Assembly (NCBI GenBank): GCA_021775875.1
Contig: JAJFHA010000020.1
Span: 275,544-339,543 of the forward strand
From: Hyphomicrobiales bacterium
GTDB lineage: Bacteria; Pseudomonadota; Alphaproteobacteria; Rhizobiales; NORP267
Direction: 5' to 3'
Length of the DNA stretch: 64,000 bases
Shown piece after piece: positions 2,959 through 58,148 of this stretch (the stretch's first letter is position 1; each line of letters starts with the position of its first letter). Position numbers and translations under genes: made by a program. The notes beneath the pieces are model-generated. The model made no database searches and was not told the DNA's origin. It was given only the letters and a program-made list of their open reading frames with translations.

Positions 2959-3459
2959 CTATTCTGTCTGGTCGATGTTATGGTTCATGGTCTTTGCCAT
3001 TTCCTTGGACTTTTGCTTCAATCGGGACAGAATTCGGTCCAGGACCTCGACGTCTTCAGGGTCAAGCGCGCTTTCCAGTTCTCCGGCGAAACGAAGTGCG
3101 ACGGGCACAATTCTGTTGTAGGTATCCTTGCCCTTGTCGGTTAACGACAGGATAATCGAGCGCTTGTCATTTTCGTCTGTATGTCTCGCAATAAGACCCG
3201 ATAATTCAAGCGCAGCGATGGCGCGGCTGACCTTGGTTTTATGCATATGGGTTCGTATGCCAATTTGCTTGGCGCTGAGAGTGCCCGTTAGGCCAAGATT
3301 AGCTATAACGCGCCATTCCGGGATGCCAATGCCATATTGTCGGGAATAGACGCCAGCCAGCGACTGGCTCACAATCTCGGCCAGGATATTGAGCCGGTAG
3401 GGTAAGAATCGCTCGAGTTCAAGCTCTCTATTGTTGTCTTTTTCCGGGTCGGTCCCCAT
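2959..3459 (-). CDS. MarR family transcriptional regulator
   Basis: A 166-residue winged-helix repressor-type protein. The central HTH (AKQIGIRTHMHKTKVSRAI, about residues 78-97) and the beta-wing with DKRSIILSLT are clear. It is divergent from homogentisate dioxygenase and co-oriented with maiA (8-base gap), so I infer control of homogentisate catabolism, perhaps with an aromatic acid as ligand. The 121-base divergent spacer contains an imperfect palindrome that could be its operator. HmgR in pseudomonads is an IclR protein, so that name is not transferred. Confidence 0.85.
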   Translation of the reverse strand: MGTDPEKDNNRELELERFLPYRLNILAEIVSQSLAGVYSRQYGIGIPEWRVIANLGLTGTLSAKQIGIRTHMHKTKVSRAIAALELSGLIARHTDENDKRSIILSLTDKGKDTYNRIVPVALRFAGELESALDPEDVEVLDRILSRLKQKSKEMAKTMNHNIDQTE

Positions 3460-3499
3460 GGCAAATAACTATCTTCTCTGGACATTAGTCGCATCTGTA

Positions 3500-54499: not shown

Positions 54500-55876
54500 A
54501 TGGCTGTCATGGCTGGAAAACTGTTGCTTGATGACCTCAAACAGGCCGCGAAAACGGGCGAAATAGATACGGTCCTTGCCGTCATGGTTGATATGCAGGG
54601 TCGCTTGATGGGCAAGCGTTTCCAGATCGAGTTTTTCCTCGATAGTGCAGTTGAAGAAACCCATAGCTGCAATTATCTGCTGGCGACCGACATGGAAATG
54701 AATACGGTTGAGGGGTATAAATCCACTAGCTGGGAAGCGGGTTACGGCGATTATGCCATGCGGCCTGATCTCTCAACACTACGCCGCATCCCCTGGCTCG
54801 AAGGCACCGCTTTGGTGATTTGCGACGTGGTGGATCATCATTCCGGAGCCGATATTTCCCATTCACCCCGGGCGATCCTTAAAAAGCAGATTGCCCGCCT
54901 CGAAGCCCTTGGCATGAAGGCTATGATGGCGTCTGAGCTGGAATTTTTCCTGTTTAAGGAAAGTTACGAAGAAGCGCAGGAACAGGGACACCGCTACCTC
55001 TCGCCAATCAGCGCCTACAACGAAGATTACCACATCTTCCAGACCAGTAAGGAAGAGGGTGTGATGCGCGCAATCCGTACCGGGTTGCAGGGCGCAGATA
55101 TTCCGGTTGAAAACTCAAAAGGCGAAGCCGATGCCGGGCAGGCGGAAATCAATGTGCGCTATACCGATGCCCTGACCATGGCCGACCGCCATTCGATCAT
55201 CAAAAACGGTTGCAAGGAAATTGCCTGGGCCAAGGGCCGTGCCATCAGCTTCATGGCCAAATGGAAGTCCGACGCGGCGGGTAGTTCGAGCCATATCCAC
55301 CAATCGCTCTGGTCCCTGGACGGTGAGCCTTTGTTCTTCGACAAAGGTGCCAAGTACGGCATGTCCGATATGATGCGCCATTATGTTGCCGGTCTGCTCA
55401 AACATGCCGGTGAAATTACACTTTTTCTGGCCCCCAACATTAATTCCTACAAACGCTTCGTTGCAGGCACCTTTGCCCCGACCAAAGCAATCTGGTCGAT
55501 GGATAATCGCACCGCTGGATACCGTGTTTGCGGTGCCGACAGCAAAGCGGTGCGGATCGAATGCCGGGTCGGTGGTGCCGACCTGAACCCCTATCTCGCC
55601 ATGAGCGCTTTACTGGCAGCAGGCATTGATGGAATCGAAAACAAGCTTGAACTGGAAACAGAATTTGTCGGCGACGCCTATGGCGGCAAGGACGCACGGG
55701 AAATCCCGACCACGCTCCGCGACGCAACAACAGCGCTCGACGGCTCCAAAATGCTGCGCGAAGCCCTGGGCGAAGATGTCGTCGACCATTACGTCCACGC
55801 CGCACGCCACGAACAATCAGAATATGATAGCCGGGTAACAGACTGGGAAGTCAGTCGCGGTTTTGAACGGTCTTAA
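54500..55876 (+). CDS. glutamine-synthetase-like gamma-glutamyl-amine ligase
   Basis: A 458-residue member of the GS superfamily. The catalytic ELEFFLF (metal-binding Glu), GEADAGQAEINVRY, SSSHIHQSLW and NINSYKRFVAGTFAPTKAIWS motifs are all present. The family branch (PuuA/GlnA3/GlnA4-like) joins glutamate to an amine other than ammonia, such as a polyamine or ethanolamine, and starts gamma-glutamylated degradation. No adenylylation-loop Tyr of GlnA is evident. Followed by an aldehyde and an alcohol dehydrogenase, which fits that role. Confidence 0.86.
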   Translation: MAVMAGKLLLDDLKQAAKTGEIDTVLAVMVDMQGRLMGKRFQIEFFLDSAVEETHSCNYLLATDMEMNTVEGYKSTSWEAGYGDYAMRPDLSTLRRIPWLEGTALVICDVVDHHSGADISHSPRAILKKQIARLEALGMKAMMASELEFFLFKESYEEAQEQGHRYLSPISAYNEDYHIFQTSKEEGVMRAIRTGLQGADIPVENSKGEADAGQAEINVRYTDALTMADRHSIIKNGCKEIAWAKGRAISFMAKWKSDAAGSSSHIHQSLWSLDGEPLFFDKGAKYGMSDMMRHYVAGLLKHAGEITLFLAPNINSYKRFVAGTFAPTKAIWSMDNRTAGYRVCGADSKAVRIECRVGGADLNPYLAMSALLAAGIDGIENKLELETEFVGDAYGGKDAREIPTTLRDATTALDGSKMLREALGEDVVDHYVHAARHEQSEYDSRVTDWEVSRGFERS

Positions 55877-55894
55877 AAGTTATAAAAGGTACTA

Positions 55895-55923
55895 TTGACA
55901 TAAAAGTAACTATATGTGTTTAT
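55895..55923 (+). promoter_or_regulatory. possible promoter of the toxin-antitoxin pair
   Basis: TTGACA (55895-55900) is followed 17 bases later by GTTTAT (55918-55923). Flanking GGTACT/GGGTACTC and the repeated AAAAGGTACT / AAAAGTAACT are short repeats that an antitoxin could bind. The block is markedly AT-rich compared with its surroundings. Confidence 0.4.
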
Positions 55924-55949
55924 GAGGGGTACTCAAATGGAGAATAGCC

Positions 55950-56348
55950 ATGACCAAATATGAACCCCTCGGAGAATTCCTCTCAAAAACCAACTATAAG
56001 CGCGTTCCTATGACCTTTGAAAATATTGAAAAATTGATCCACGATGTGCTGCCACCGTCCGCACGAAAACACCGTGCATGGTGGAGCAACAATCCAAGTA
56101 ACAGTGTTATTACATTCGCTTGGCTCAATGCGGGGTACAAGACTGCCAATGTTGATATGGCGGATGAAAAAGTCACGTTTATAAAACGCGAGGACAGGGT
56201 ATCGCCCAAGGAAAGACTAGCTGACCCGCTTAAGCGGGTTGGGCGGCATCCAGCTTGGGGAGCGCTTAAAGGGACCACCATTGTTGCTGAAGGTGTGGAC
56301 CTGACGCAACCTGCCGATCCAGATTGGGGCAAAGTCTATGAAGACTAA
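55950..56348 (+). CDS. putative antitoxin with DUF7662-like N-terminal domain
   Basis: A 132-residue two-part protein. Residues 1-80 (YEPLGEFL, MTFENIEKLIHDVLPPSARKHRAWW, AWLNAGYKTANVDMADEKVTFIKR) resemble the DUF7662 domain found alone or fused elsewhere. Residues about 88-132 (RHPAWGALKGTTIVAEGVDLTQPADPDWGKVYED) resemble the toxin-binding tail of VapB-type antitoxins. The usual AbrB/RHH DNA-binding head is absent, so the DUF7662-like part may take that place. Its end overlaps the PIN gene by 11 bases. Confidence 0.7.
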   Translation: MTKYEPLGEFLSKTNYKRVPMTFENIEKLIHDVLPPSARKHRAWWSNNPSNSVITFAWLNAGYKTANVDMADEKVTFIKREDRVSPKERLADPLKRVGRHPAWGALKGTTIVAEGVDLTQPADPDWGKVYED

Positions 56349-56754
56349 CCTTCTAATCGATACCTGCGCGGCAATTTGGATGACAGAAGATGCGCCTTTT
56401 TCTGAAGAAGCTGCAAAGGAAATTGACGAGGCCTATCGAGACGGAAGGCGTACTTTCGTTTCGCCAATGACGGCGTGGGAGAGGGGAATGCTAGATGCCA
56501 AAGGGCGCTTGTCCTCCCCGACATCTCCCCACCGCTGGTTTGATATTTTGCTCACAGAATTGGGCTTTGAACTTGCGGAATTAACCCCCGGGATACTGAT
56601 CGATTCATCGTTCCTTCCTAGCAGTGTAAATTCCGATCCCGTCGACCGTATCCTCATCGCAACCGCCCGGGCTAACGACTTTACCATCGTTACCCGCGAT
56701 CAAAAAATTCTCGATTATGCCGATAAAGGCCATGTTCGAGCCATGGCATGTTGA
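56338..56754 (+). CDS. vapC: PIN-domain toxin (VapC-like)
   Basis: A 138-residue PIN RNase. The acidic Mg-binding residues are Asp8 (IDTCA), Glu48 (AWERG), Asp103 (DPVDRILIATA) and Asp121 (TRD). VapC toxins cleave tRNA or rRNA and are held by a co-translated antitoxin; here the antitoxin frame overlaps by 11 bases. The ALDH GTG follows 12 bases after the stop, so the pair is embedded in a catabolic operon. Confidence 0.85.
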   Translation: MKTNLLIDTCAAIWMTEDAPFSEEAAKEIDEAYRDGRRTFVSPMTAWERGMLDAKGRLSSPTSPHRWFDILLTELGFELAELTPGILIDSSFLPSSVNSDPVDRILIATARANDFTIVTRDQKILDYADKGHVRAMAC

Positions 56755-56765
56755 AGGAATAGTTT

Positions 56766-58148
56766 GTGATTAAAACAATCCAATGCATCTCTCCCATTGA
56801 CGGTTCGGTATATGCTGAGCGCCCGGTTGCGGCATTTGATGATGCGTCCGGAATTGTCGATGCCGCGCGAGACGCCCAACGCGTCTGGGCCACGCGCCCG
56901 CTCGCCGAGCGTATCGAACTGGTCCGCGCCGGGGTCGCCAGAATTGGCGAAATGAACGATGAGATTGTACCCGAACTGGCATGGATGATGGGGCGACCGA
57001 TCCGTTACGGCGGCGAATTTGGCGGGGTCAATGAACGCGCGTCTCATATGGCGGGTATCGCCGAAGAGGCCTTAAAGCCGATTATCGTTGAAGACAGCAA
57101 CAATTTTGAGCGCCGGATCATGCGCGAACCCCACGGTGTCGTATTTGTCGTGGCCCCCTGGAATTACCCCTATATGACGGCAATCAATACCGTCGCTCCG
57201 GCTTTGATCGCAGGTAACTCAGTTATCCTGAAACACGCCACCCAGACCCTGCTTGCTGGTGAGCGCATGGTGCGGGCGTTTATTGAAGCCGGGTTGCCGG
57301 AAGGTTTGTTTGCCAATCTGTTCCTGGATCATCAAACCACCGAAGACCTGATCGCGGCCAAAAAATTCGACTTTATAAATTTCACCGGATCGGTCGGCGG
57401 CGGACGCGCCATGGAGCGGGCGGCAGCCGGGACCTTTACCGGCATTGGCCTAGAACTCGGTGGCAAGGACCCGGGTTACGTCATGGACGATGCTGATCTT
57501 GATGCTGCTGTGGATACCCTGATTGATGGGGCAATGTTTAATTCCGGCCAATGTTGTTGCGGGATTGAGCGGATTTATGTGTGTGCGGAACTTTACGACG
57601 AGTTTGTCGAGAAAGCGGTGGCGATTGTATCCAAATATGTGTTGGGGAATCCTCTCGAAAAACCCACTACATTGGGACCAATGGCGAATATCAGATTTGC
57701 CGCTGAAGTACGGGCACAAACCGCTGAAGCACTCGCAGACGGTGCCGCACCCATGTTAGATATCGCGCTCTTTCCGGCGGACGATGGCGGTGCTTATCTC
57801 GCGCCACAAATTCTGACCAACGTCACCCACAAGATGCGGGTGATGCGGGACGAGAGTTTTGGCCCTGTGGTTGGCATCATGAAGGTATCTTCAGACGAAG
57901 AAGCGATTGCCCTCATGAATGACAGCGATTTCGGTTTGACCGCCTCGCTCTGGACCAAAGACCCGGCGCGCGCTGCTCAAATAGGCGGAAAAATCGAGAC
58001 CGGGACCATTTTCATGAACCGGGCAGATTATCTTGATCCGGGCCTTTGCTGGACCGGACGCAAGGATACCGGTCGTGGCGGAGCGCTTTCTGTCATTGGG
58101 TTCCAAAACCTCACCCGCCCGAAATCATATCATCTCAAGAAGGCCTGA
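56766..58148 (+). CDS. NAD(P)-dependent aldehyde dehydrogenase
   Basis: A 460-residue ALDH-superfamily enzyme. Catalytic Asn133 (PWNYP), general-base Glu230 (LELGGKDP) and nucleophile Cys264 within NSGQCCCGIERI are present. Start is GTG (IKTIQCISPIDGSV). Length and PWNYPYMTAINTV are nearest to succinate-semialdehyde/lactaldehyde-type ALDHs. By neighbourhood it likely oxidises a gamma-glutamyl amino-aldehyde made by the next gene. The operon reads GS-like, TA pair, ALDH, ADH. Confidence 0.88.
   Translation: MIKTIQCISPIDGSVYAERPVAAFDDASGIVDAARDAQRVWATRPLAERIELVRAGVARIGEMNDEIVPELAWMMGRPIRYGGEFGGVNERASHMAGIAEEALKPIIVEDSNNFERRIMREPHGVVFVVAPWNYPYMTAINTVAPALIAGNSVILKHATQTLLAGERMVRAFIEAGLPEGLFANLFLDHQTTEDLIAAKKFDFINFTGSVGGGRAMERAAAGTFTGIGLELGGKDPGYVMDDADLDAAVDTLIDGAMFNSGQCCCGIERIYVCAELYDEFVEKAVAIVSKYVLGNPLEKPTTLGPMANIRFAAEVRAQTAEALADGAAPMLDIALFPADDGGAYLAPQILTNVTHKMRVMRDESFGPVVGIMKVSSDEEAIALMNDSDFGLTASLWTKDPARAAQIGGKIETGTIFMNRADYLDPGLCWTGRKDTGRGGALSVIGFQNLTRPKSYHLKKA

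Follow-up and report, generated by a model that had tools for sequence, protein, structure and literature searches.

The antitoxins that accompany PIN-domain toxins have been described with a variety of DNA-binding heads, and the portions of Makarova et al. 2009 (PMC2701414) considered here name RHH, AbrB, PHD, DUF433/COG2442, COG2886, COG2880, COG1753 and MerR-like partners. Modular antitoxins, in which a DNA-binding module is joined to a separate neutralising tail, are described in the corresponding portions of the NetFlax study (PMC10440598). The locus considered here lies in a stretch of 64,000 nucleotides that was analysed as a whole (the window) and encodes a pair that resembles several of these systems. 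With VapBC modules whose antitoxins carry Phd/YefM heads it shares a PIN toxin of the same subgroup, the antitoxin gene in first position and the same C-terminal tail, but the head of the window antitoxin is DUF7662. With VapBC modules that have RHH (PSK_trans_fac, Rv0623-like) or AbrB heads it shares gene order and a PIN toxin, and at two loci (L164 and L165) the tail is found on an RHH-type head, although neither domain was detected by Pfam in the window antitoxin. An unusual DNA-binding head beside a PIN gene recalls the families of PMC2701414, and the build of module plus tail recalls those of PMC10440598, but in the portions considered neither names a DUF7662-type partner. In the literature searched, the name DUF7662 does not occur and neither the domain nor a DUF7662-PIN pairing is described, and a search on toxin-antitoxin pairs in catabolic operons returned nothing relevant. 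In Pfam the window antitoxin is a full member of PF24698 (DUF7662); the members encountered outside the present set are mostly single domains or nuclease-related fusions with no assigned function. The two genes and their parts are as follows.

55950..56348, + strand: antitoxin gene, 132 aa, DUF7662 head and VapB-type tail (ORF list, Pfam)
55959..56180, + strand: DUF7662 domain, antitoxin residues 4-77 (Pfam; winged helix predicted by AlphaFold2, with weak fold comparison)
56250..56330, + strand: putative toxin-binding tail, antitoxin residues 101-127, common to Phd/YefM- and RHH-headed antitoxins
56338..56754, + strand: PIN-domain (VapC-type) toxin gene, 138 aa, with D8, E48, D100/D103 and D121 (ORF list, Pfam)

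The pair is read here, with a probability of about 0.85, as a VapBC-type (type II) toxin-antitoxin module in which the DUF7662 head would be a winged-helix-like reader acting on the pair's own promoter, a reading drawn from sequence and structural modelling. The PIN-domain protein would be an endoribonuclease that stops growth when free, and the C-terminal tail of the antitoxin would wrap around and block it. The DUF7662 head would bind the half-sites GGTACTAT and AGTAACTAT around TTGACA (55888-55913), such binding would repress the promoter, and on degradation of the antitoxin repression and inhibition would end together. The conservation of the pair, its intact catalytic residues, the shared tail, the replacement of the head, the covariation with the operator and the insertion between a glutamine synthetase-like (GS-like) and an aldehyde dehydrogenase (ALDH) gene were computed; from these sequences we infer toxicity, neutralisation, DNA binding, repression, and RNase activity with its target.

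The two reading frames overlap by 11 nt (56338-56348) and the pair is present in the genome as a single copy. The product of 55950-56348 matches DUF7662 at residues 4-77 (E 1.6e-17, 63.5 bits against a curated cut-off of 26); the original prediction had described a DUF7662-like head joined to a VapB-type tail, and while the tail stands as described the head belongs in full to the family rather than merely resembling it. No other Pfam domain was found in the antitoxin at E<=10, be it AbrB, RHH or Phd/YefM. The product of 56338-56754 matches PIN (PF01850, E 1.3e-12, 48.8 bits against a cut-off of 23.6), and the acidic residues already noted in it were borne out across 64 relatives, which show no change at D8, E48, D100 or D103 and retain D121 in at least 90% of cases. 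Searches of PADLOC and PHROGs gave no match to the antitoxin and none to the toxin beyond one chance-level PHROG, and NCBIfam gave a weak, partial match to the toxin below cut-off and nothing else for the pair. Solved structures searched by sequence yielded chance matches only, leaving DUF7662 with no solved relative by this route. Phage records contained no match to the pair and plasmid records matched the head alone.

Scanning one genome per species for the antitoxin gave 157 relatives, 80 of which were kept. In the survey of neighbourhoods that the original prediction had proposed, a PIN gene lies directly downstream (3') of the antitoxin gene in 78 of the 80, mostly with a distance of -8, -4 or +6 nt from antitoxin stop to PIN start, and the keeping of this order argues that the arrangement is beyond chance. 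The two exceptions, L054 and L059, are near-identical and combine an intact antitoxin with an apparently broken PIN start; read by eye, a PIN-gene-like start with a frameshift and an early stop lies at about 3382-3480 of these loci, 3' of what is now an orphan antitoxin. Loss of the toxin with retention of the antitoxin is the direction expected for a toxin-antitoxin pair. Purifying selection predominates among close pairs: in nine of the 11 compared, both genes have dN/dS values of 0.04-0.29. The toxin does not exceed 0.24 in any of the 11, and the antitoxin reaches 0.40 and 0.95 in two pairs that are near-identical and have very few changes. The pair is a widespread, conserved two-gene module. 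Three relatives (L067, L074 and L079) come from contigs labelled Nitrospinota, Acidobacteria and Aminicenantes, and their pairs nest within those of Alphaproteobacteria, which either transfer or mis-binning of the contigs might explain.

Sister PIN genes were gathered from the same class and their upstream neighbours examined. These neighbours have heads of the Phd/YefM type, or of the RHH type at the two loci mentioned above, and end in the same tail as the window antitoxin, HPAWGALKGTTIVAEGVDLTQPADPDWG, which recurs in this way among antitoxins of the same PIN group. A profile made from the tail only and run against 1221 six-frame segments around the sister PIN genes gave matches at E<0.08 solely in the ORF directly 5' of the PIN gene. 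Pfam matches to Phd/YefM exceed the cut-off in L146 and L155 (E 2.4e-8 and 6.3e-9) and fall just under it in L156, and the match of L165 to PSK_trans_fac (RHH-type) is weak and below cut-off (E 0.0017). As the same tail and toxin group occur with three kinds of head, DUF7662 occupies the place of the DNA-binding head. The proposed replacement of an AbrB or RHH head is upheld as a replacement; judged by sequence, the nearest alternative head is Phd/YefM rather than AbrB.

DUF7662 has a wider distribution, being fused to HNH_2 (L103), DUF4268 (L104), HEPN_Swt1 (L020) and, weakly, GIY-YIG (L106), and its union with such varied nuclease-related domains is what a portable targeting domain would be expected to display. 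In L103, L104, L105 and L106 DUF7662 occurs in plasmid-borne proteins alongside HNH_2, DUF4268 or GIY-YIG-like parts; the L105 protein (Thermococcus) is encoded close to a gene for a type I restriction endonuclease, from which a ribonuclease J gene separates it. In L012/L021, L017 and L018 a second type of DUF7662 antitoxin, with the tail GFTVSREQIYD, lies 5' of a different PIN protein, and in L012/L021 the two are followed by a protein of the HEPN_Swt1-DUF7662 type.

The AlphaFold2 model of antitoxin residues 1-82 has a mean pLDDT of 95.5 and comprises H5-13, E18-22, H23-30, H37-40, H42-45, H55-60, E63-69 and E74-79. This order, H-E-H-H-H-H-E-E, fits a winged-helix-like topology in the model and does not prove the fold. 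Residues 39 and 40 are placed in the helix after the first turn, and 52 and 54 just ahead of the next helix. The top structural matches found with VIA-align were both DNA-bound, RepE (Z 5.6, rmsd 3.2, 74 aligned) and CtsR (Z 5.0, rmsd 2.7, 65 aligned), and Foldseek gave no match to solved structures at E<=0.001. Because Z values near 5 are common, and may reflect a common arrangement, the fold match was not taken as proof of DNA binding.

The candidate operator and the segment that would read it are given below.

55888..55895, + strand: operator-like half-site GGTACTAT, with GTACTAT at 55889 and GGTACT at 55888; this class of half-site is enriched upstream in relatives
55895..55900, + strand: TTGACA, a -35-like box flanked by the two half-sites (sequence scan; no good -10 by simple scan)
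55905..55913, + strand: operator-like half-site AGTAACTAT, with GTAACTAT at 55906; TAMCTA motif in 41/54 relatives of the Ser class
56058..56117, + strand: predicted DNA-reading segment, antitoxin residues 37-56; residues 39, 40, 52 and 54 track operator class

An AT-rich promoter belonging to the pair itself had been predicted. At 31.5%, the G+C content of the 73 nt ahead of the antitoxin gene is below that of the pair (49.8%), of the GS-like gene (54.2%) and of the ALDH gene (55.2%), and the start originally assigned to the locus, 55895, coincides with the TTGACA box, coding beginning at 55950; a simple scan for promoters returned none on the + strand, and no good -10 box, upstream of the antitoxin. 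The two half-sites of the window are in direct rather than inverted orientation. Across the relatives, half-sites recur within 90 nt upstream of antitoxin genes, often inverted and far above the level in dinucleotide shuffles, and the arms of upstream inverted repeats are longer than in shuffles (p 1.8e-8).

The half-sites differ with residue 52 of the antitoxin: GTAACTA/GTACCTA-type half-sites lie upstream of Ser-52 loci, the class to which the window belongs, and ACACAC upstream of Asn-52 loci (21 of 22, with 2.7 expected from shuffles). Association was tested on 75 loci with complete pairs, in which ACACAC accompanies 20/21 Asn-52 versus 4/54 Ser-52 loci (p 2.6e-13) and TAMCTA 41/54 Ser-52 versus 1/21 Asn-52 loci (p 1.2e-8), both Fisher values being inflated by shared ancestry. 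Some loci of the Asn class have no ACACAC (L082, L173 and L175). Residue 52 had been picked after looking, and every one of the 238 variable columns in the two proteins was therefore scanned against operator class, with the toxin columns, which share the ancestry of the pair, as a control; antitoxin residues 52, 40, 54 and 39 ranked top (scores 0.54-0.37) and the best toxin column reached 0.26. In held-out loci, which were fetched afterwards and share less than 85% identity with the first set, 6/10 Asn loci have ACACAC versus 0/11 others (p 0.004); set against the Ser class alone (0/3) the difference is not significant in this small sample (p 0.19). On the tree there are 10-12 switches at residue 52, of which only five well-supported independent pairs are available, too few for significance in a sign test, and in nearly every tree pairing residue and motif go in the same direction or show no difference. 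More distant pairs (L199, L200 and L202-L205) have other palindrome-like repeats upstream and also differ in the 'WWSN' segment, and possibly represent further operator classes.

Head replacement, the upstream half-sites, the covariation of residue and operator and the predicted winged helix together suggest that DUF7662 very probably binds DNA. A true toxin-antitoxin pair in which DUF7662 served toxin binding, stability or sensing instead, with DNA bound by the tail or the complex, or not bound at all, would suit a domain with no solved relative by sequence and with weak fold matches; it is nonetheless unlikely, since operator class is tracked by residues of DUF7662 and far less by any column of the tail or toxin, and since the tail is the same on Phd/YefM or RHH heads, so that DUF7662 would be unneeded for neutralisation. 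The borders of the site at which the pair is found are listed here.

54500..55876, + strand: GS-like (glutamine synthetase family) gene, left border (ORF list; orthologues directly 5' of ALDH in relatives)
56766..58148, + strand: aldehyde dehydrogenase gene, right border (ORF list; junctions of relatives)

As originally described, the pair splits these two genes of a catabolic operon, being flanked by the GS stop at 55876 and the ALDH start at 56766. In a genome of the same genus (G385) 7 nt separate GS stop and ALDH start with no pair between, the junction is empty in most other relatives, and within the genus and family this genome alone yielded a DUF7662 pair. The absence of the pair from the junction of the same-genus genome indicates that it was inserted, as had been supposed. 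A one-off insertion is an insufficient account, since the same junction is occupied in many families: a GS-like gene is directly upstream in 19/80 relatives and ALDH directly downstream in 18/80, and the pairs between the two come from Rhizobiaceae, Stappiaceae, Paracoccaceae, Tepidamorphaceae and others, with further cases in G399 (L135/L183), L171, L193, L196 and L198. Presence of the pair needs five changes on the GS tree.

That the pair is confined to this genome within its genus and family might suggest that the two intact ORFs serve no present function and are a neutral or decayed insert; both frames are open, the motifs are kept and the relatives are mostly under purifying selection, which makes this very improbable. 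It is also decidedly unlikely that the pair is a working part of the operon and no addiction module, the PIN RNase and its partner tuning the GS-ALDH transcript. Such a role would explain the use of the junction in many families, about 20 of the 80 pairs lying between GS-like and ALDH genes, and GS-linked pairs do cluster on the tree of the pair (6 changes versus 17.8 when shuffled), but in a class-wide GS sample not chosen by the pair 0/17 measurable GS-ALDH junctions outside the window were occupied, and most pairs are elsewhere, e.g. near ispG in Bradyrhizobium. The sampled junctions, being usually empty, argue against a conserved part of the GS operon as the general case. The junction is thus usually empty yet a recurrent home of the pair, and the recurrence could stem from homologous recombination via the conserved flanks, from operon transfer or from site preference. 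A second recurrent home lies beside an ispG-like gene (named by eye from its translation) in Bradyrhizobium and Variibacter (L030, L031, L033, L034, L036, L040, L069, L070 and L073). Six loci (L113, L119, L128, L134, L229 and L230) have a GS-ALDH spacing of 97-202 nt instead of about 10, and these long spacers are possibly remnants of former inserts.

With the pair read as a toxin-antitoxin module, the main new point is the assignment of DNA reading to DUF7662, which is proposed on computational grounds. A broader proposal, tentative and placed somewhat below even odds, is that DUF7662 represents a new class of winged-helix DNA reader with a readable code, the choice between GTAACTAT/GTACCTAT and ACACAC half-sites being set by residues 39, 40, 52 and 54. 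Under this proposal it would act as the antitoxin head of two or more PIN systems and also as a targeting domain of nucleases, and the toxin-antitoxin pair would repeatedly move into the GS-ALDH junction. A likely function would thereby be given to a domain found also in fusions with HNH, HEPN and further nuclease-related domains, and candidate DNA-reading residues are named for it. The heads of PIN-toxin antitoxins would gain one more DNA-binding type, together with a natural series of operator switches, and the recurrence at one operon junction would offer a concrete case for how toxin-antitoxin pairs choose their home.
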